Assembly: GCA_947044365.1 (NCBI GenBank)
Contig: OX345636.1
Location: 60,639,537-60,703,536 of the forward strand
Length of the DNA stretch: 64,000 nucleotides
Reading direction: 5' to 3'
Origin: Petrosia ficiformis
Lineage: Eukaryota > Porifera > Demospongiae > Haplosclerida > Petrosiidae
The notes under the pieces were generated by a model, which was not told the DNA's origin, did no database searches, and saw only the letters and a program-made list of their open reading frames with translations. The translations under genes were made by a program, and so were the position numbers. How positions within the stretch are numbered: position 1 is the first letter of the stretch; each line of letters opens with the position of its first letter. Shown piece by piece: positions 6,601 through 52,240 of this stretch.

Positions 6601-9600
6601 GCCCCATTGTAGAAGTAACTAAGTCTGATATGGACTCTGACTCTGAGTCTGAGAGCATTGAATCCCCACAGAGTTCGTCAACATTGCTAGATTCTCAGTT
6701 GTCATCATCAATAATAGCGATAATGTACGTAACGTAGATGCCAACAGACAACACCCATCATGAATGATCAATTCGCATGCCATAGTAATATCAATACAGG
6801 TGCTAGGCCCCCCTGATATTCATGTCTAGACACACCTATGTATCTGCTAGTAAGTAGAATGCTATATTTGTAATTAAGATATAATACCACTCTTCTTAAA
6901 AGCTCCTATACATAGAACTATTGTATTGCTTATAATTACATGTATTATTATCAATACATGTATTGAGAATGTCTGTTGATATTATTATCATTTATCCTAG
7001 TCATACAAAACTTTATTACATTGTATACATATTTGTTTATTTATACATTTTACACATTGCTATGATCTATTCACATTGCTATGATCTATTCACATTGCTA
7101 TGATCTATTCACATTGCTATGATCTATACAGATTACTATGATCAATTCACATTGCTATGATCTATTCACATTGCTATGATCTATTCACATTGCTATGATC
7201 TATTCACATTGCTATGATCTATACACATTGCTATGATCTATACACATTGCTATGATCTATTCACATTGCTATGATCTATTCACATTGCTATGATCTATAC
7301 ACATTGCTATGATCTATTCACATTGCTATGATCTATTCACATTGCTATGATCTATTCACATTGCTATGATCTATTCACATTGCTATGATCTATACACATT
7401 GCTATGATCTATACACATTGCTATGATCTATTCACATTGCTATGATCTATACACATTGCTATGATCTATTCACATTGCTATGATCTATTCACAGATGACA
7501 AATCTACTGTTACTAAGAAACAGGAGGTATCACTCCCAGGTACTGATTTGTGTTCCATATCAGTTTCATTATCATAATTTTAATGTTCTATATGAGTGTT
7601 TGAAACATCCCATAGTTTAGTAATAATTATTATCATTGCAATTACAATAATAGCACTTGCCATGTTGCTTCCTTCACCTTGTTAAGATAACTATACACTG
7701 TGAACAATAATGATATAAAATATATTCCAAACATTTCTAAATCAGTTAGTAAAATTGTCCTCCATTTTCTATTGTCACATGAAGTGATTGAAGTTTAGCT
7801 GTATATAGGACTGAAATGAAAATTTAAAATCTGCTTTATCACCTAATGATCAAATGGCTGCTTGTGTTATTATCATTGGGGTAATGCTTGCAAGGTTTGG
7901 TTGTAGAAAATATCCAACACTTCCTAGTCACTTCGTTTCCATTCTGATTTATCATCATAAGAATGCTAGGGCAACATGTGCAAATCTGTCTGCTCAGCAT
8001 CTATTTTAATGATTGTATTATTTGTATTACATATAGTGATAAAAGTTGTAATAGTCACATGTATATGGTGTGTATTTGTTATCAAAATTGTATTACATGT
8101 ACGTATTTAGGGCTGGGGCGAAGGTGGGAAAACAGCCTTTAAAGCTTTGTTAGCAAAAATGAACGAAAGTTCAAAGGTACATGTTTTTATCAATGTTGGT
8201 CTTACCTTGATTGGCTATAGAAAGCCTCCAAAACATGGTTATTGCTTTATAATGAGAACTAGTGTGGTTCCTGTCAGTGTTTCTATCAAGATTAGGCACT
8301 GCTGGACTGAGAAATAAGACAAAAGCAACCAGCAACACAGCCTCAACTTTCATGGAACATGCCCACATTATTAGCCACAAGTTTGAATTGCAGAAGTGTG
8401 CATGCGCAAACATTAAAGTAGGCGTGGCAGCCCAGCTTTGAAGGTAGAAGTGTAGCTTCGAATGCACAACAAAGGAACAAAGGTTGAACCTTCATTCCCA
8501 GCCCTACTTGTATTAGTTGTATTACTTGTATTACTTGTATTACTTGTATTAGTTGTATTACTTGTATTAGTTGTATTACTTGTATTAGTTGTATTACTTG
8601 TGTTACTTGTATTACTTGTATTACTTGTATTACTTGTATTGTATTACTTGTATCAGAGCCCAGAATGATGTTGACGAGAAAGCGAAAGAGTAGGAGCGGC
8701 AGACGAACACGAATTTAATTAAATTGGTCAAACTATCTGTCTGTCCATCTGTTACTATTTTTAGAATCCACGTGTATCCACACCTTCGTTGAAAACGAAC
8801 TGCTACTAACTACATTGACTTAGTTTCCTCTAAAACAAAGAAAATAATTTGGCAATAATTTGGCTGTGTAGACCTGTGAAGACGTTGCTAGTGAAGCCAT
8901 TGACAGAGTAGCAGAAATAATGTCAAACACTCTTGATTAGGACTAAACAATTCTTTCTCGGCTTCTCCAAAGCATGATCTCGCTTTCCTGATAGTAGGTG
9001 ACTCCATTTCTGCCTCCAGACATGTTCGTATACTAACTAACCTTGGAGATCTTCGAGGTGTTGACGCCATATTTAACAAAGGCATGGATTCTACAAATAG
9101 TAACCTATGGTCAGACAGATACATGTAGTTTGAGCAATGTAATTAAATGCATGGTCATCTACCGCTCCTACTCTTCTGCTTTCTGGTAAGTTTTTGGCTC
9201 TTGTTTGTATTAGTTGTATTTTTTTTGTACAAGTGTTTTGATCAAATGTGGCTTAATGAGGAAGCTAAAATAGCACAGAGACCGACGGCTTTACATCCCC
9301 TCCGAAGGATGGGGTGATTAACACCTCCTCATTTTTGGAGGGTAGAGCTGTGTACACTCATAGGTGAAAAAAACCTAACCCTAGCGGGGCTTAAACCTGC
9401 AACCTTTCGATTGCAGGCCAGCACTTTAGCTAGCAGGCCTCTAGTACTCCCCTATTAGTTGTGTTATACATGTAGTTGTGTTGATATGAGGGTTGTATTA
9501 TAATGCACATTTCAATGAACACTATTTTTTCCATTGCAGATGATATCAAAAGCGATATTTCTGAGCAAGATGAACCAAATGTGAAGAAGCCAGATGAAAC

Positions 9601-18015: not shown

Positions 18016-21000
18016 TCACTTTATAAGTACATAAAATTTATACATAACACTCACTGATAATCTTCTTACTGGTACATATACATCATCTTCTGTAAGAGGA
18101 AGAAATGATAATAGATGTTCATAATGTAACATGATGTATATACCTTCTTGAGTCTTCATAGTTTTCAACACACTAACAAAATCCAATACACTATAATATA
18201 AAAGACATTCTTTAAAGAAGTACACACATTGCAGACACAACATGTGTGCATGAGGAGGTATGTTATAACTGTTTCGTACCATGGAAATTGGGCAATATGA
18301 AATTAATTTTTGTGATTATTGCCTAAACGTGACTTGCAATTATTGTAATATTGTAACTACTCATTGATACTGTCTATGATAACAAAAATAGGTTCATTTT
18401 TTAAAAGATGACTATTCCGATCCATGTTTAGATAGCATACAGCTTAAGATTAAGTGTTATACATGTAGTATTTTTCAACTCCATAATTATTTTTATAATA
18501 ATTATAATATCTATTATTTAATACAATATATGTGATATGATTATTACAATGTATGTGGATATATTAAAACTATTACCCAACTCTACATGTAGCTGACAAT
18601 TGTAGAATGCTATCTTGATGCAGTCAGTGCCAACATTTCTCATAATGGCACTGCAGTCATGCAGTGGCAACATGTGAGATGAGGCACTGTGGTTATACCA
18701 CATGCTATATGTTAGCATTGCTGGCCTTTTGATATTAAGCACTACATGCTACATATCAAGTATTTGTAACGAATGAATAGTCATTAAGTTCCTTAAATAA
18801 ATTATTTATGCAATTAAATTCATACTTGAAGGTATCTGGTAATAGTTCCCAAATTTGATCAGTTTGAAGAACATCTCCTTTTGAAAAATGAATCAGAGCT
18901 CGATGGAATAAAGCACATTGAAGAGGAGGAGATATCTGATAAAGATAAGAATATTAATCAAACATGTACATGTACATGACAGCTTGTGGATTATTTTTAG
19001 ATGTTCTTGTAGAACTTTAGGAATATATTGCATCTAGAACAACTATTAGTTCCAGTTTATACGTAAATCTACAAGCAGCTTTCTTTTTGGAGGCCTATAG
19101 AGCTTGAGTGCGCATTCCTTATTATGCCCTCGCCATTATTTAACAGAGTCCTAAGGAATGACACCACTTCGCTACATATACAATGCATAGTCACCTATGT
19201 GACAGAAACATAAATATTCATTAAACCCCATGGAAAGCAGTTATAGGGATGGCCCTATAGCCCATAAAAACAAATTATGAATACCTGAGAGAAGACTTGT
19301 TTCATCACATGAATAGCGTCAACCCACAACTCATTATCCAATAGGATAGTCAATGCTTGTAGTTCAACATTAGGATAATCACTGTGTGTATGGAATATAA
19401 TTATAAATGTATAATATACATGAATGTACATGTACATTCAACATTAGGATAATCACTATGTGTATGGAATATAATTATAAATGTATAATATACATGAATG
19501 TACATGTACATTCAACATTAGGATAATCACTGTGTGTATGGAATATAATTATAAATGTATAATATACATGAATGTACATGTACATTCAACATTAGGATAA
19601 TCACTGTGTGTATGGAATATAATTATAAATGTATAATATACATGAATGTACATGTACATTCAACATTAGGATAATCACTATGTGTATGGAATATAATTAT
19701 AAATGTATAATATACATGAATGTACATGTACATTCAACATTAGGATAATCACTGTGTGTATGGAATATAATTATAAATGTATAATATACATGAATGTACA
19801 TGTACATTCAACATTAGGATAATCACTGTGTGTATGGAATATAATTATAAATGTATAATATACATGAATGTACATGTACATTCAACATTAGGATAATCAC
19901 TATGTGTATGGAATATAATTATAAATGTATAATATACATGAATGTACATGTACATTCAACATTAGGATAATCATTGTGTGTATGGTATATAATTATAAAT
20001 GTATAATATACATGAATGTACATGTACATTCAACATTAGGAAAATCATTGTGTGTATGGAATATAATTATAAATGTATAATATACATGAATGTACATGTA
20101 CATTCAACATTAGGATAATCACTATGTGTATGGAATATAATTATAAATGTATAATATACATGAATGTACATGTACATTCAACATTAGGATAATCACTGTG
20201 TGTATGGAATATAATTATAAATGTATAATATACATGAATGTACATGTACATTCAACATTAGGATAATCACTGTGTGTATGGAATATAATTATAAATGTAT
20301 AATATACATGAATGTACATGTACATTCAACATTAGGATAATCACTATGTGTATGGAATATAATTATAAATGTATAATATACATGAATGTACATGTACATT
20401 CAACATTAGGATAATCATTGTGTGTATGGTATATAATTATAAATGTATAATATACATGAATGTACATGTACATTCAACATTAGGATAATCACTGTGTGTA
20501 TGGAATATAATTATAAATGTATAATATACATGAATGTACATGTACATTCAACATTAGGATAATCACTATGTGTATGGAATATAATTATAAATGTATAATA
20601 TACATGAATGTACATGTACATTCAACATTAGGATAATCACTATGTGTATGGAATATAATTATAAATGTATAATATACATGAATGTACATGTACATTCAAC
20701 ATTAGGATAATCACTGTGTGTATGGAATATAATTATAAATGTATAATATACATGAATGTACATGTACATTCAACATTAGGATAATCACTGTGTGTATGGA
20801 ATATAATTATAAATGTATAATATACATGAATGTACATGTACATTCAACATTAGGATAATCACTATGTGTATGGAATATAATTATAAATGTATAATATACA
20901 TGAATGTACATGTACATTCAACATTAGGATAATCATTGTGTGTATGGTATATAATTATAAATGTATAATATACATGAATGTACATGTACATTCAACATTA

Positions 21001-41829: not shown

Positions 41830-43110
41830 TTTCTTTTTCACTGTGAACAGCAGCTAAGTAGTAATCTAGTTTTTAATATGCAGTTCTTGTCTTGTTGGTA
41901 ATGTGACTTTTGTCCATAAAGGAAAGAGCTTCCTCCTTTTGGATGGAGACACAGATTCAATGTCACCTTCAGATTGAGCAATAACAAGTGTATCAGGATT
42001 GCTATCCATATCTGCCCTATTTTCTTCTTCACATTATTAATTTCTGAAACAGAGGAAGACCGTGATGGTTTAATTTCTGGATCCAGGACAGTTGCTATGA
42101 TGAAAATTGAATCTGATTTGATTGCACTGAGTTTTGCCATGAGGTTTTCTTTGAGAATGTGTACTAGGTTTTGTAAGTGCCGATCGAACGCTAGTGGTCT
42201 CAATATATGTGCTTCTGTAGGCAAATAAAACAAGGAAGTGCTACACATGCAGATGCATATGTGTCGCCTTGTACATGTTTAGTTGCTTCTTCAAATTGTT
42301 CAAATACTAGCTCTTGTAAAACTGCTTTAGCAGTTAGTGACAAATGCAAGTCCTTCTTACTTACAATGCCATTAACCATTAGAACACTGATATCACATAT
42401 ATGTGACATTTCACCCCTACGTGGTTAGCAGTGTGTTCCTAGCTTTACAAAGCTCTCCAAATGCTTGTAGTTAGCGTCAGGCACAAGCTCATGAAAATGG
42501 CTAAAAAAGTTGCGGGGGGAATCAGGGGCTCTCGCGCTCTGGTGGGTACCTGAGACATTTCCCTTGCTGTAAAACTTGAAATCGTCGGTATAGCTGCTGC
42601 CAACATGCAGTGGGGTCAATTTTGTTTGCCCCAGTTCTGGTCAAAAGAGGGAGAGCACTGCATTTGATTTAATTCGACTTTCGAGTCCCGGTAAGCAAGT
42701 TGGTAGACGTAGTATTCCATGTCAGAAAAGGAGCCAAGTTTGTGGAAGAGAAAGTGAACTGTGGCCAAAATATATGCAATAGAGTCGCCAGTGTTGGAAA
42801 TGGTAAGAATTGTGAAAAACAAGCTCATTCCTCTAAGGGTTAGTTAATGTCGTCAACCTCCAATAGAAGCATTACCATCATTAATTGTGAGTTCCATCGG
42901 GTGTCATCTTTTGCAATCAGCACTTTATGAAATTTTTCTTCTAATTTCTCAATTACGATGGTTGACTTCCGACATCAGCGACAATTTTGACAACACATTT
43001 TGCAGTTGTCTGCAACCCATTGATTCCATCACTGACATACAACTGTAAAGTGTGTACAAAACAACTGATAGTATCAGTTGTTTTGTACACACTCTCATCT
43101 CATTTCATCT
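41830..43110 (-). pseudogene. Degenerate hAT-family transposase
   Basis: Read leftwards: TLQLYVSDGINGLQTTAKCV (about 43040-42990), then TIVIEKLEEKFHKVL and DDTRWNSQL (42960-42890), then LTAKAVLQELVFEQFEEATK and LPCFICLQ (42360-42220), then NLMAKLSAIKSDSIFIIATV and LDPEIK (42150-42060). The HTLQL, TRWNS, E.FEEATK and ATVLDP blocks are the usual hAT transposase landmarks. The blocks are in different frames, with stops between them, so the gene is dead. A 45-bp perfect palindrome (43049-43093) interrupts the HTLQL region. Confidence 0.75.
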
Positions 43111-43740: not shown

Positions 43741-43885
43741 TACTCACTGAAGGTTGATTAGTGATAATGGTGTTGCCAATAGTGCAGGACAGCCATTAGC
43801 CGGAGAAAGTTATCCAATTAGTTGGGTGGGTGTTCTTACGCATGCGCATTGCATTAAAAATAAATATTCACGATGAATTCACGCA

Positions 43886-46800
43886 ATGGCGCTCTACAAC
43901 ATCACTGCATTACAACCTCCCGGTATCTTGAACACAGCAAACAATTGCTATTCTAGTAGTGTACTGCAATGTCTTCTAAATCATCCTATTTTCTTTGAGT
44001 TGTTTCAACTGAGTAAAGGTCATGACAATTGTGAAACATGCAAAAAATCAGGTAATCTTCTTATAAATTATAAGTACATGAATATAATTTGTATGTACAT
44101 AAATAAATAAATAAATAAATAAATATATATATATATATATATATAGAATCATTATAAGTATAATTATAAGAAATGAAGTAACTGCTTTTACATTATAACA
44201 CAGGAACATGTTTAGCAAAAATGATTAAAGAATTATGTGCCACATATAAGTACAGCAGTGTGACAAAAACACTTCCAACCGAGCCAATAATTGAAATTCT
44301 AAAAGGTAAAAGTGATAATTAATGATTTGACTACACGAGAACACAGTATTTCAATAGAGACACATGAATCATTTATTCCTGGTCAATACAATGACGCTCA
44401 TGAATATTATATACAACTTATCAATAGGCTAATCGAAACAGCTACTATGGAGTAAGATACTTGTGTCATAAATTACAATGCATGTTGTGTAAAGACTAAC
44501 CTTTCCTGTGACCTTGAATAATCAATTTTTCACAAGTAGTTACATTAATTAGTTGCTAAGTATGTATGATATACAGGACAAAGAAGATTGTGAAGCAAGC
44601 TTGTTTCTCTACAGTTACAGAAATAGGTGCAATAGTTATATGTACATGTACATTACAGTCTTAAAATTACTTTACTGTATAGTTTTATGTAGTTGTTGCA
44701 ATGAAAGTACTAGCAGTAGACAGATTTCAAGTGTATTTGAAATCAAAATAGATGTGAGTGTATTCTTCTAAGTGTAGACATATTGATGAATACAATACAT
44801 TTTCAGGGAAATAAGAACGTACACTTACAGGACTTGGTTTTGGATGAAATATATAAGTCAGAAATGCTTTCCGACTACAAATGTGGAAGGTATATATGTA
44901 CAAGTACATGTATATGTATATGTAAATATGTATACATATTTATAATTATGTATATGTATACATGTATATATGTATATATATCATATATATAATTATGTAT
45001 AAATATTATATATATATATATATATATGTACATATATATATGAATGTACATATATATTTATGTATGTATATAGATACATATATTATATATATATTATATA
45101 TAATATATATATATAATTATATAGATATATAATTTATATTTATAATTATATATAAAGAATACATGTGTTTTTGTGTGTGGCTCTCAGGTAATTTAATACT
45201 GATACATTACAGATGTGGCAGTTTTGGGCGATCTAGCAAATCTATTGAAATAACAGAATATTGTAAATTACTATGTATTCATATCACCAAGTCATCAACA
45301 ACGTTAGTTAAAGCAAAAATGATTCTACATGACACATTGAAATAGGTTTTCATTTGTACATAGAAATAAGTTACCAGTTGTCCAAGTACAGGTCACTTAC
45401 AAAACATCGTTTTTCTGTTTTAACTGAAACATTCATTACTACAGAAAACATCATTAAAATTGGGAAGTGCAATTTATAACCTTGTGGGAATAGTGAATTA
45501 TCAAGCTCATGCAAAACATTACACCTCATTTGTCCGATCTAGAGAAGACAACACTCAATGGTTTTATGTGAATGATACTTTTGTTAGTTACTTTTTATAA
45601 TGTATGGCACAGTAGTCTTTACCACATACAAACTCAAGGTCACTCCTATTAGTACTGTTACAGCTGTTCAACAGGATCCATTCATGCTGTTTTATACACT
45701 AGATGAAGGTACATTCATTGATGGAGAAAACACAAGAGTTTAATTACATTAATAGGTGGAAGAATTACTCTCCCTATATCAGCTCTTAGTAGTCTAACAA
45801 CAATGGCTTATCTTACAGATGAGGTACATACAAAGTATCCCATGTATACATTACACAAGCAATGAGTGATTGATAAATATTCAGGTCATATCATCATATA
45901 TGGATATTCTTGCATCACAAGCATCATTGGTAATACACTATTTCTACAAATCCTTACTTTATGAATGGACCTGCTTTCAGATTGGAAAGAAGGTACTTGC
46001 TTTGAGTTCATTATTTTTTGCAAAACTTTGCCAGCATGGATATCAGTCAGTGGCAAGGTTTTATCAAAGGGTAAACAACAATTTATACACAAGACAAATT
46101 AAATTCACTCCAGTTTATATAAACAGATCAATCTTACTGAACAGGATATACTTTTGTGTGTAATTAATCATGGTCAATATCACTGGACACTATTAGTAAG
46201 CATATACATTCTCTTCACAGTAATGTGTAATAATGGTATGGATAGGTTGTAGATTTGGCTAAAAAACAAGCAGAGTATTTTGATTCTTTTAAGGGTTCAG
46301 TTGAGTCATATTGGTATACATTAAGGTATAAAAATATTGAAAGTATACAATATTTTTGATTAACAACCTACATAGGTTATTCTTGGAATGTCGCTGTAAA
46401 GATCAAAACTTACCAGTGCCTGACTGGAAACAGTGGAAATATATACACAGAACAGTATGCACTAATTATATATACATGTACATTGCTTGTACACTGATTG
46501 ATATTTATAGGACCAACCAATTCAAACAAATGGATTTGATTGTGGTGTTTTTGTCACACAGTTTGCATTATGTAGAGTATTTCAGAAAGCCTGGGACTTT
46601 AAGCAGGTATTCATCACATTTTGCAATGGTCTCTCTAATGTATTGAAATGAATATGTAGGAGCATATGGGAATTATAAGAAAAATAATACTAGAAGAAAT
46701 CTTATGTGGCTGCTTATTGTAAGTTGCTCAGTGTGTCATTGGTAATGTGGTTCATCTTTATGTAAGCATGTTTATAAACTTACATCAGTTGTGAATAATA

Positions 46801-49611
46801 ATACACAGGCAATTCAATGTCAGGGCAACACTTCTACAAACACCAGTTCCTAATGGATTCAACTACCAACCAATATTCCTAGAACCAAATACAGCCAAGA
46901 TTCTGCACTGTCCACTTATTTCCAAACAACAGTCTCTTAGCTCAACATCAAATTCAACTAGACAAATTGATTTGTCTGATAAACAATCACCAAAGCAAGA
47001 CAATTTTGATAGTACATCAGACCTTGAGAAAACAACTTTAATCAATGCAAAATTATTGGGAAAAGAGAAAACGGCTGATACATACAACAATCAACCTTCA
47101 ACTATAGGTAATATGACACACAATAAATTATAGCTCAACTTTAACAAAGTTTTTCAAACAGTTAAAACTCTACCAAAATCAATCAAGAACACATCTTTGT
47201 GCAGAATCAAGGATAAGTTTGTTTGTTCGATCTGTAATAAGAGTTACACCTATCGAAGCGGTTTGTCTAAGCATCAAAAAAAAGAGCACAAAGATGTTGA
47301 AAGTGGCTTCATTGTTTGTAGTCTGTGCAATAACAGGTACTCTACTTCATCTATAACTGCATAATTGCGTAATACTTGCTTCTTTTACAACAGGGTTACA
47401 ACTCTTCAAAAACTAATAACACACCTTCATTCTCATCATCAACTGTCTATGGAGGAAGAAGAGTTGTGGTTTGAAACATTACATGCTTTTACAGATTGGA
47501 AGGAAGAGCTTGAAGCAACATGTCGCTCTTACTATGTTCTTAAATGTGCTCCTTATGTTTCAAATGGCATGAAAACATTTTATTACTACTGTAACAGATC
47601 TGGGACATACAAGCCGGAAGGTTGTGGGAAACGGCAACTCAAATCACAGGGCACATCAAAAACAGGTTATCAATGTTCTGCTTTTATCAAAGCAACACAT
47701 AATACAGACACCCAAAAAGTATTAGTTAAATACTGCAGTACACATTATAACCATAGCACACAATTAGCTTACCTCAGAATACCTCAAAGAGTTCGATTAG
47801 ACATTGCTAGCAAACTGCAACAAGGGGTAAGTATAGAACGCATACTTGATGACATCCGTGATTCTGTACAATGTAGTGGTGTAAGCAGAGAGCATGTAAT
47901 TATCAGACAAGATATTCATAATATTAAAACGCAGTATAATATTGAAGGCATTAGTAGGCATAGCAATGATCTTACAAGTGTTGGTGCCTGGGTAGCTGAA
48001 ATGAGATCACTTCCTTACAATCCAGTACTACTTTACAAAGAGCAGGGTAGCGTACAGGATGACGAGATGGATAATTTAGGAGACAATGATTTCCTTCTAT
48101 GTATACAGACTGAATTCCAACGAGACGCACTACAAGCATTTGGAAATGACACAATATGCATTGATTCCACACATGGTACAAACATGTACAACTTTAATCT
48201 TGTAACCATAGTTGTTATTGATGAATATGGGGAAGGGGTACCAGTCGGTTGGATGCTCTCAAACAGAGAAGATGCTATGGCAATTATACCTTTTTTTACT
48301 GCAATTAAAGCCAGATGTGGCAATATTATACCAAACTGGTTCATGTCTGATGATTCTGATAACTTTTTCAATGCATGGAAAGGAGTTTTCGGAGAGAAAG
48401 TCACTAGAAAAATCATCTGTGCCTGGCATCTAGATAGGTCATGGAGGAAGGCTTTAGCAGAGCACGTTAAAGATAAAAAGGAACAAATAACAATTTACCA
48501 TATACTTAGCATGCTATTAAATGAACGAGACGAAGCTAAATTTAGAGTTGAATTACAAAGCTTCTTAACATATGCTGAAACAAATCACAATGGTTTTTAT
48601 ACTTATTTTGATTCCAATTATTGCACACGATTGAAACAATGGGCAACATGCTACAGAATACGTACAACAAGTAATACAAACATGTTTTTAGAAGCCTTTC
48701 ATAGGGTGCTAAAAATTGTGTACCTGCATCACAAACAAAACCGAAGAGTGGATGCTTTACTCGTTACCTTGTTAAAAGTAGCAAGAGATAAGGCATTTGA
48801 GCGGCTCAGAAAAAAGGAAATGGGGAAAAACACGCACCGAATATCTGAGGTTAACAAACGTCATAAAAGTGCTGTTCAATTAAGTCCAACTTTGATAAAA
48901 TATGAGGAAGACATGAAGTGGACTGTTACTTCACAAACTTCACTACATATAACCTACACTGTACAAAAACAGGAAGAAAACTGCAGCTGTCAAATTCGCT
49001 GCTCTGAATGTAAAATCTGTCCACATAATTACACATGTACCTGCATAGATTCAATACTTCATTCAACTGTATGTACACATGTTCATCTTGTACATATGCA
49101 ATCGGCAGCAATTTCACCCCAGCAGTCAAGCGATAATCCAGAAATCACTAACTATGATTATTTTACTCATGTGCTATCTCACAGAGATTCGAATCAAACT
49201 TTGACATCGGCCAAGAATTCATTTCTTTCTAAACTGCACAAGTTAGACATACTTGCTTCACAGTGTAAAGGTCTTGATGCCATATTATCAGGTAGTAAGC
49301 ATCTTCAGGCTGCCATTACTGTAATGACTACAATTGAAATGCAAACATCACAAAAATCACTGTCAGTGAAGAGAAAGGTCTCACCAAACCAAAACTGTGA
49401 GCATCAACAAAAATTCTTCTCCACAAAGAAACGACGAACAAATTGTAATACACGTTCCACTCTTTCAAAACCTTCTTCAGCGCAACTACAAGAAGTTAAA
49501 ATAACTCTTGAAAAAGAACATCCAAGATATTGCGGTAGTTGTCTTAAAGAAGAGGATAAAAATGCTACAGGGATAATAGAATGGATTCAATGTGATTTAT
49601 GCCTTTTGTGA
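43886..49611 (+). CDS. USP - Ulp1 - C2H2 - MULE transposase composite protein
   Basis: Proposed exons: 43886-44051, 44204-44305, 44358-44451, 44577-44626, 44683-44753, 44807-44889, 45213-45345, 45445-45582, 45639-45708, 45756-45823, 45885-45929, 45981-46070, 46127-46195, 46246-46325, 46376-46454, 46511-46606, 46660-46718, 46809-47107, 47162-47336, 47394-49611; about 1,390 codons. USP domain: Cys box NNCYSSSVLQCL, PGQYNDAHEYY, CSCC zinc pair, His box NYQAHAKHYTSF. Ulp1: HWTLL, YFDSF, QTNGFDCGVFV. Zinc fingers: FVCSICNKSYTYRSGLSKHQ, then VCSLCNNR...HLHSHH. Transposase: D at 48163 (CIDSTHGTN), D at 48349 (FMSDDSDNFF), CAWH, E at 48691 (NMFLEAFHRVLK), then SWIM-like CTCIDSILHSTVCTHVH. One flaw: TAG at 45343 just before a weak donor. 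Several separate genes remain possible. Confidence 0.7.
44940..45155. repeat. TA-rich microsatellite in the element's longest intron
   Basis: TATATGTATACATG and (AT)n tracts between exons 44807-44889 and 45213-45345. It accounts for the only long (323 bp) intron of the transposon gene; the others are about 50-120 bp. A later expansion inside the element is likely. Confidence 0.8.
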
Positions 49612-49794
49612 ATTCACCTTTCATGCACAATACCAGAGCTGACTACAATACCAACTCATTATACTTGTCATTTTTGTCATCAAAATTGAATAATTTGTAA
49701 TTGACTACTGTTATGTAAAATATAATTATTATGATGATGCTAATACCTTGATACACCTTTTAGCCACAATATAACAGTAAATGGTAATTGAGTA

Positions 49795-50022
49795 CTGCTA
49801 TGTAAAGTTTTAAAATATAATTTTATTGCTATATAATACCTTCATACACCACAATAAAACAGGTATATATAGCTATGTAAAGTTTTAAAATATAATTTTA
49901 TTGCTATATAATACCTTCATACACCACAATAAAACAGGTATATATAGCTATGTAAAGTTTTAAAATATAATTTTATTGCTATATAATACCTTCATACACC
50001 ACAATAAAACAGGTATAGACTC
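49795..50022. repeat. 75-bp tandem repeat near the right end of the MULE
   Basis: GCTATGTAAAGTTTTAAAAT through ATAATACCTTCATACACCAC to AATAAAACAGGTATA is present three times in a row. A partial, more diverged unit lies at 49715-49790. It includes an AATAAA signal, so it may also supply alternative polyadenylation sites for the transposase mRNA. Confidence 0.85.
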
Positions 50023-50249
50023 ACCAACGGCAGTTATAGACTCACTAACGGCTGTATAGACTCACCACGCCCAATACTGCCCACTCAATTAATTGGATAA
50101 CTTTCTCCGGCTAATGGCTGTCTTGAAATGTATGGGCGGCCATTTTTTTTCCGTGCCATCCCTACATAGAGAGTACTACCGTACTCTCTGATATATAATA
50201 TATCCATGGGATGGCCCTGGCTACACAAGACTTGAAGTCCCATCTACTA

Positions 50250-50477
<228 letters not shown>

Positions 50478-51499: not shown

Positions 51500-52240
51500 A
51501 GGGATGGCCCTACGGGCCATAAAAAGATTATATGTACGGAGCAGGTTGCCTCCTTTTCCTGATTTGGATCCCTGTCTAGAGAGATCTAATTCCCATCTTG
51601 TCAGGTACAAATTTCGCAATTTCTTTGGTAAATCTCCCAATAGGAAAGAATATCTTTGGCTGATAGACCTGTATCTTCAACAACTGCTGACAGATTCTTT
51701 GAACCAGCTATCTTTACCAGAAGAAGCTAAAGAGCAAGATAGAATAAGGGCATCTTCTACTAAAACAGAGGCAGCATTCTCTTCATAAATTCTATTCCAA
51801 AACTTAACAGCTTTCAATTTAGTAGAGACCCAGACTGGATATAAACCCAATTCACCCAGAACTGCTAGAGGTGTTAAGAGGAACTTCTAGTATATACTTG
51901 GCAAAAGGATTCTTTCAATTGATGCTGATTCACCATAGCCCCATAGTTCACTAGCATACGTCAATACAGGCATCACTTTTACATTAAATATATGGCATAA
52001 TATTTGAGGGAAGAGAAACGAATACTTCCTGAACTTTCTAAACATGTTCGCCATGGCTTTCAGGCCACCTTAGCAACATTTTCAACACCAAATTTAGTTT
52101 ACAAACTTTAAAACCAAGATACTTAAATTGGTCCACTACCTCCAAAATCTTGCCTTTGTAAGTCTGCTTACAATCTGTAACAAATCTGTAGTTCTTCTCA
52201 GATTAAACTTCCAAATGTGTATTGACAGTATCTCTATAAA
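51500..52240 (-). pseudogene. 3' end of a degenerate LINE reverse transcriptase ORF
   Basis: Read leftwards in shifting frames: FKYLGFKVC (about 52125-52100), KVMPVLTYASELWGYGESAS (51980-51915), AKYILEVPLNTSSSSVLGEL (51900-51845), GLYPVWVSTKLKAVKFWNRI, then DSWFKESVSSC. FKYLGF, LTYASELWG and LGELGLYP are the usual C-terminal landmarks of non-LTR reverse transcriptase ORFs. Many stops and shifts, so it is dead. Clade not assignable. Confidence 0.7.

Follow-up and report, generated by a model that had tools for sequence, protein, structure and literature searches.

Eukaryotes use SUMO and ubiquitin for transposon silencing and for protein turnover, and Mutator-like elements (MULEs) bearing the SUMO protease Ulp1 occur in plants, namely Kaonashi/KI and elements of melon. 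To our knowledge, these plant elements carry Ulp1 without a USP deubiquitinase. Here we describe an element of the sponge Petrosia ficiformis, situated at positions 43788-50122 of a stretch of 64,000 nucleotides (contig OX345636.1, also referred to as C1, 60639537-60703536; hereafter, the window). It is almost certainly a MULE-type DNA transposon, and a mobile one, coding for a USP, a Ulp1 and a transposase. It shares the Ulp1 (C48) domain with the Mutator-like elements of plants, and differs from them in its host and in its USP. The architecture is real, conserved and unusual.

The survey of Dupeyron et al. (2019) covers 1631 MULEs and includes in their definition a target duplication of 8-11 bp (PMC6446971), which is also what is found in family A, as we will refer to the close copies of the window element. 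The main text of that survey contains zero matches to Ulp1, ubiquitin or protease, and neither USP nor Ulp1 is entered in its Table 1 (PMC6446971); USP-bearing MULEs may be described elsewhere in print. By structure, the nearest known system is Rehavkus, compared here by its description alone, which appears in Table 1 as a MULE outgroup with one open reading frame, a PHD finger and a minisatellite, and with hosts in Arthropoda and Annelida (PMC6446971). The sponge element may be a Rehavkus relative, because the 9-bp duplication, the PHD finger and the minisatellite are shared. Rehavkus is described with a 9-bp duplication, inverted ends of 26-400 bp, a PHD finger accompanying the transposase and a minisatellite before the 3' end (PMC6446971); the features found here are the 9-bp duplication, the length of the inverted ends, the PHD finger and a minisatellite (in family A; mostly absent in other families). 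Unlike the sponge element, Rehavkus has neither USP nor Ulp1 in that table (PMC6446971).

Other described systems share single aspects of this organization. MuDR-6_HM is likewise a MULE with a deubiquitinase-type domain, which in its case is OTU (Ovarian Tumour) and not USP. OTU is a deubiquitinase family different from USP, and the host of MuDR-6_HM is Hydra. Table 1 of the survey assigns MuDR-6_HM to group 14 (Cnidaria), with the OTU domain and with no Ulp1, PHD or USP entered (PMC6446971). Regarding the transposase, its RNase H-like core matches the ZSWIM1-3 RNase H-like domain PF21056 (7.4e-9). ZSWIM1/3 are vertebrate host proteins with no proteases; VANC, the anti-silencing protein of VANDAL elements, is not known to be a protease either. 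VANDALs are a precedent for MULEs coding for their own anti-silencing function, as the sponge element may do. VANC causes DNA methylation loss, and its targets often form tandem repeats (PMC5735166), which the tandem arrays of the sponge element recall. However, VANC is encoded by a separate open reading frame (PMC6446971).

Architecture and coding capacity of the element

Copies were sought in the 191-Mb assembly (29 contigs) with a 73-bp left-end query (40 matches; 42 candidates, 40 scored) and with the transposase (78 matches; 61 of 272 candidates scored). The inverted arms at 43785-43830 and 50080-50125 are 93% complementary across 46 nt and most family copies with both ends found are flanked by 9-bp duplications, which bears out an earlier note on this DNA that proposed a MULE with 43-bp inverted ends. 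Splice sites of the gene model were picked by hand, and family B, a related family spliced with A as a guide, served as a check. The model contains 20 exons (43886-49611) in a single open frame of 1382 amino acids; the introns are GT-AG in 19 out of 19 cases, and 13 of them measure 47-57 nt. In frame, the order of domains is USP, Ulp1, a linker, two C2H2 fingers and the MULE transposase, followed by a SWIM-like motif and then by a PHD finger that a TGA truncates. The exon order read in the earlier note through GT-AG sites (USP, Ulp1, two C2H2 fingers, DDE transposase) is thus recovered, with Pfam matches, and its suggestion that both proteases might belong to one polyprotein agrees with the single frame of the model, which would encode both. 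The features are as follows:

43788..43830, plus strand: left terminal inverted repeat, 43 bp (repeat search, copy comparison)
43886..45708, plus strand: exons 1-9, USP (C19/UCH) domain, residues 1-289, with Cys box NNCYSSS, His box AKHYTSF and YVNDTF (Pfam, PDB)
45307..45444, plus strand: intron 7, containing TAG 45343-45345 (gene model, family B donor)
45756..46830, plus strand: exons 10-17 and start of exon 18, Ulp1/SENP-like C48 domain, residues 290 to about 490, with QYHW, YFDS and QTNGFDCG (Pfam, PDB)
46831..47107, plus strand: rest of exon 18, linker, no recognised domain (gene model; the Pfam scan reached residue ~516)
47162..47460, plus strand: exon 19 and start of exon 20, two C2H2 fingers, the second interrupted by the last intron (Pfam)
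47394..49611, plus strand: exon 20, MULE transposase, SWIM-like motif and start of the PHD finger (Pfam; SWIM by eye)
49609..49611, plus strand: TGA replacing the Trp codon of the PHD finger and truncating the window copy (copy comparison)
49797..50017, plus strand: minisatellite, 75 bp x 2.9, adjoining the right end
50013-50067, plus strand: 21-bp x 2.7 array after the 75-bp minisatellite, adjoining the right end
50080..50122, minus strand: right terminal inverted repeat, 43 bp (repeat search, copy comparison)

Two junctions in the USP part were settled by comparison with family B. The earlier note had found one phase break, a TAG at 45343 before a weak donor, and this did not hold: the TAG is intronic, as exon 7 can stop at 45306, in phase with the next exon, at the donor GTTAAAG (45307), 36 bases before the TAG. 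The family B copy L029 shares this donor at the equivalent position, closely preceded by an additional intron, and the reading of exon 7 through to the TAG was dropped. Similarly, exons 8 (to 45582) and 9 (from 45639) are separated by a 56-nt intron with a donor like that of family B, instead of by the 26-nt intron of a first model; the junction reads NDTF-VTPIS in A and NDTS-VTQVS in B.

The USP matches the Pfam UCH profile (PF00443, 2.9e-24) over positions 2-254 of 254, with Cys, His and Asp/Asn boxes present, and the Ulp1 matches Peptidase_C48 (PF02902, 3.3e-22), with the catalytic His, Asp, Gln and Cys. Both proteases keep their catalytic residues and are thus predicted to have the potential for activity. 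The nearest solved structure of the family A USP is, with a clear lead, 4fip, "Ubiquitin carboxyl-terminal hydrolase 8" (2.6e-15), which we take to be yeast Ubp8, the histone deubiquitinase of SAGA; for the family B USP the same structure barely leads USP36 (3.2e-9 vs 8.5e-9), and in the distant family L the best match of the Cys-box exon, the only one compared, is USP21. The nearest solved structure of the Ulp1 is SENP1 (2.4e-26). Besides PF21056, the transposase matches MULE PF10551 above the cut-off (2.1e-9), and its acidic residues D257, D319/D320 and E433 (numbered in the open reading frame from 47395) are invariant in families A and B, as represented by the window copy, L029 and L040. 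A PDB search with the transposase, an NCBIfam search with three transposase pieces and an Rfam search of the window each gave zero matches. The C2H2 fingers score above the Pfam cut-off, and the PHD finger (PF00628) reaches 24.3 bits against a cut-off of 24 when the reading of the copy L009 is used; the SWIM-like motif (CxC..CxH) was identified by eye, with no Pfam SWIM match.

The single frame bears on two alternatives. Splicing might give separate USP-Ulp1 and transposase proteins, with no polyprotein, as could be suggested by L029, where the Ulp1 frame meets a stop in the linker after Ulp1 while a different frame stays open (by eye); the linker exon of the window copy, however, contains no stop and keeps the phase at both of its junctions, and we consider separate proteins distinctly unlikely. 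The proteases might otherwise process a polyprotein, cutting the long protein to free the transposase as in viral polyproteins. One continuous frame and two N-terminal cysteine proteases would suit such a role, but no ubiquitin or SUMO domain appears among the Pfam matches of the five pieces scanned (the linker, residues ~516-584, lay outside the scan) and, where A has Gly-Gly between the two proteases, B has Gly-Asn, which makes processing very unlikely in our opinion.

The protease pair across copies and families

The earlier note held that copies of the inverted ends without protease exons would speak against it. Both proteases are present in four out of five family A copies (the window copy, L009, a copy on contig C2 and L012), the transposase cores of the five being at least 96% identical; in the fifth, L013, an internal deletion runs from halfway through the USP, across the Ulp1 and the fingers, into the beginning of the transposase. 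Two A-like fragments (C11:2447103 and C1:54490163, 85-89 transposase residues) were left out of this count. Besides these copies, 20 extra loci were picked for matching the transposase or a protease, and are thus not a random sample. Together with the four copies above, USP and Ulp1 were both seen in 13 of the 24 loci, and in 12 of the 24 USP, Ulp1 and transposase follow each other in that order on one strand (L046 is weak, and L037 has no transposase match).

In family B the transposase is 57% identical to that of A, and L029, with splice sites chosen after those of A, holds a continuous 492-amino-acid USP-Ulp1 frame; at the 16 junctions common to both families the phases agree without exception, and its protein matches Pfam UCH (9.7e-24) and C48 (9.8e-17). 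USP boxes are also canonical in distant families (NTCFANA/GGHY in L042 and L045, NTCFMNA/TGHY in L043), and four single USP exons of L045 (family K) and L043 (family L) exceed the Pfam UCH cut-off. In these last two loci, Ulp1 motifs (HW, DS, QxNGxxCG) come after the USP, and transposase identity is 44-47% over the stitched core. Families A, B, K (L045) and L (L043) all retain the catalytic motifs of both proteases. Since related elements of the same genome carry the same pair, USP-Ulp1 appears to be a retained component of the element instead of a stray gene fragment. Between A and B, the amino acid identity and the proportions of nonsynonymous (pN) and synonymous (pS) differences are 44%, 0.34 and 0.74 for the USP, 61%, 0.25 and 0.77 for the Ulp1, and 55%, 0.30 and 0.80 for the C2H2-transposase part, values that place all three parts, at sequence level, under purifying selection. 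An estimate from the window copy against L012 (USP pN/pS 0.16) was not used; L012 is decaying, and its Ulp1 and linker show no synonymous change.

A genome-wide set was also assembled from 44 transposase-match start positions (derivatives and same-locus repeats excluded) and 40 PF10551 matches, resulting in 63 MULE loci. A USP match on the same strand, 0.5-9 kb upstream, was found in 25 of 43 loci of the clade, defined by a match to the transposase of the window copy, vs none of 20 other MULE loci, with a chance expectation of ~0.003 per locus; the 43 take in the window and its duplicate L009, and the count covers USP only, as same-strand upstream matches. An exon-by-exon genome scan with PF02902 gave 11 matches, none of them at these elements, so that the linkage of Ulp1 rests on locus-level Ulp1 searches. 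Among clade transposase loci, L038, L040 and L044 have no detected USP, L038 retaining Ulp1; they may be truncated or belong to a lineage devoid of USP. Outside eukaryotes, pattern searches gave 109 matches in viral contigs and 41 in prokaryote contigs, none of which was confirmed as a relative.

Fragments of host genes can be acquired by MULEs (PMC6446971), and introns are retained throughout the protease part, as might be expected if the USP and Ulp1 exons were host passengers captured in the manner of Pack-MULEs, with no function for the element. Against this stand the proteases being in frame with the transposase, the intron phases common to B, the order that recurs in divergent families and the purifying selection between A and B; furthermore, Pack-MULEs have lost the transposase and carry host fragments, whereas here the transposase is present and in frame. 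Compared exon by exon, no free-standing host gene 95-100% identical to the USP or Ulp1 of the element was found among the best candidates, all matches of at least 95% being family A copies; weaker matches (identity below 95%) occur at some places, e.g., C1:54673730 and C2:14455586. We therefore regard capture as extremely unlikely.

Mobility of family A and surroundings of the element

Family A has been mobile recently, because target duplications flank most copies with both ends. Counting only copies in which both ends were found (L026-L028, without one or both ends, were left out), a perfect 9-bp duplication is present in 11 of 17, one of them (L015) within a CA repeat, and an 8-bp duplication in one (the C2 copy); the remaining five (the window copy, L009, L012, L014 and L025) have none. 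The C2 copy is 99.5% identical to that of the window, has all domains plus inserts, and lies in other flanks between 8-bp direct repeats, while L012 has diverged and is decaying: each domain is still present, and stops occur in USP, Ulp1 and transposase. L009, 6335 bp long and 99.92% identical to the window copy, was dropped as a second insertion, its flanks being equal to those of the window copy for over 5 kb in both directions; a segmental duplication or a haplotig of the assembly accounts for it. The duplication around it spans at least 16.9 kb (C1:56709950-56726884, comprising L049, L009 and L050), is 99.8-99.9% identical to the window, lies ~4 Mb away on the same contig, and could be a haplotype retained in the assembly. 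In other families, 9-bp duplications were read by eye from the flanks of L030 (acatttcaa) and L034 (cctaaatgt), and of L043 (agcctgggt) if its right end is shifted by 2 bases. Duplications of 8 bp were seen, also by eye, in L029, L032 and L047 (in the latter, three bases beyond the drawn ends), and those of L042, L033 and L031 are imperfect or unclear.

In eleven derivatives (L014-L024), which measure only 2.0-2.35 kb and are 98.3-100% alike, what is left between the two ends is the initial USP exons and a piece of the 3' side, most of the transposase being lost as well. In L015, an open frame of 219 amino acids joins USP zinc-finger residues to the C-terminus of the transposase and the start of the PHD finger, and its possible product would be devoid of the catalytic His; frames of 202-235 amino acids are found in other derivatives. 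The tandem array beside the right end varies, with the 75-bp unit repeated x 2.9 in the window copy and L009 and x 1.9 in C2; in other families, B has AT-rich arrays and, in L034, also one of 69 bp x 3.0, the array of K has 16-bp units (x 2.9), and L043 shows no tandem array near its end. At the Trp codon of the PHD finger, TGA is found in the window copy and in L029 (about position 7581), and TGG in the other 23 of 25 matching copies, the C2 copy included. Coincidence is the likeliest explanation of the shared TGA, a selected truncation being possible.

Regarding the surroundings, an enolase-like first exon lies on the minus strand at 50247-50477, 125 bp from the right end (by eye), and no further enolase exons were found in the window with a few motifs. 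The element may lie in transposon-rich DNA, since it is flanked by minus-strand frames that resemble, by eye, a decayed hAT transposase and a non-LTR reverse transcriptase (41838-42843 and 51887-52069). A repeat region at about 20000-21000 has 49 genome matches, most of them on C1 at 51-62 Mb.

A proposed role for the two proteases

As a whole explanation, we propose that a single gene encodes one multidomain protein (USP-Ulp1-C2H2-DDE-SWIM-like-PHD) with a role against silencing or in transposase stability, with a probability of roughly 0.65. The C2H2 fingers and the PHD finger would bring the protein to the element ends and to chromatin, where USP and Ulp1 would strip chromatin proteins, silencing factors or the transposase of their ubiquitin and SUMO; the element would then remain expressed and its transposase stable. 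That the proteases are used in this way, against silencing and for the stability of the transposase, is put forward tentatively and at somewhat less than even odds. Use at chromatin is the simplest form of the proposal, because a Ubp8-like USP and a PHD finger share one protein. The proteases could instead work mainly off chromatin, shielding the transposase from ubiquitin-dependent breakdown or SUMO-dependent inhibition, and being in one frame with it they could act in cis; a weak indication in favour of chromatin comes from the PHD finger and from the resemblance of the USP to Ubp8, and we consider a mainly off-chromatin role unlikely. Action on the transposase itself is nevertheless nearly as likely as action at chromatin.

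Several observations weigh against the proposed single-gene explanation. None of the four family A copies with all domains is wholly intact: the window copy has its PHD finger truncated by the TGA at the Trp codon and lacks a target duplication; L009 has a TAG in USP exon 2, its PHD Trp codon being TGG; C2 is disrupted by 4 extra bp in Ulp1 exon 16, by large inserts and by a PHD stop; and L012 has the stops in three domains mentioned above. In family B, the PHD finger of L029 is also interrupted by a stop, and its linker meets another. The Ulp1 of L043, L045 and L046 is recognised by short motifs and by low-scoring matches (E 0.014-0.13 when 4288 open reading frames were searched with a local profile); only one sub-threshold Pfam Ulp1 match was obtained in L045, two other pieces of L043 and one of L045 giving none, and the Cys motif of L046 is altered (DCEIF). 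The pair is also incomplete at some loci, with USP and no Ulp1 match in L042 and L047, and Ulp1 and no USP match in L038; by the upstream rule, 18 of the 43 clade loci have no USP (L046, among them, shows USP and Ulp1 pieces otherwise). Finally, synonymous sites between A and B are saturated, and no exact ratios can be given.

Beyond the single-gene explanation, this MULE lineage might carry a built-in two-enzyme anti-silencing device, in which a histone-type deubiquitinase and a deSUMOylase, fused to the transposase and guided by the PHD finger, erase marks at the element's own copies; in this complete form the idea is doubtful. On a practical level, the element is a warning for annotation, as 26 of the 136 USP-domain matches in this genome, counted by exon and not by gene, have a MULE transposase downstream. 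For the biology of the family, a lineage that keeps both erasers in frame with its transposase over long divergence would point to a direct conflict over ubiquitin and SUMO marks, and the anti-silencing device, if true, would be the answer of a transposon to the silencing that animals direct at transposons through SUMO.

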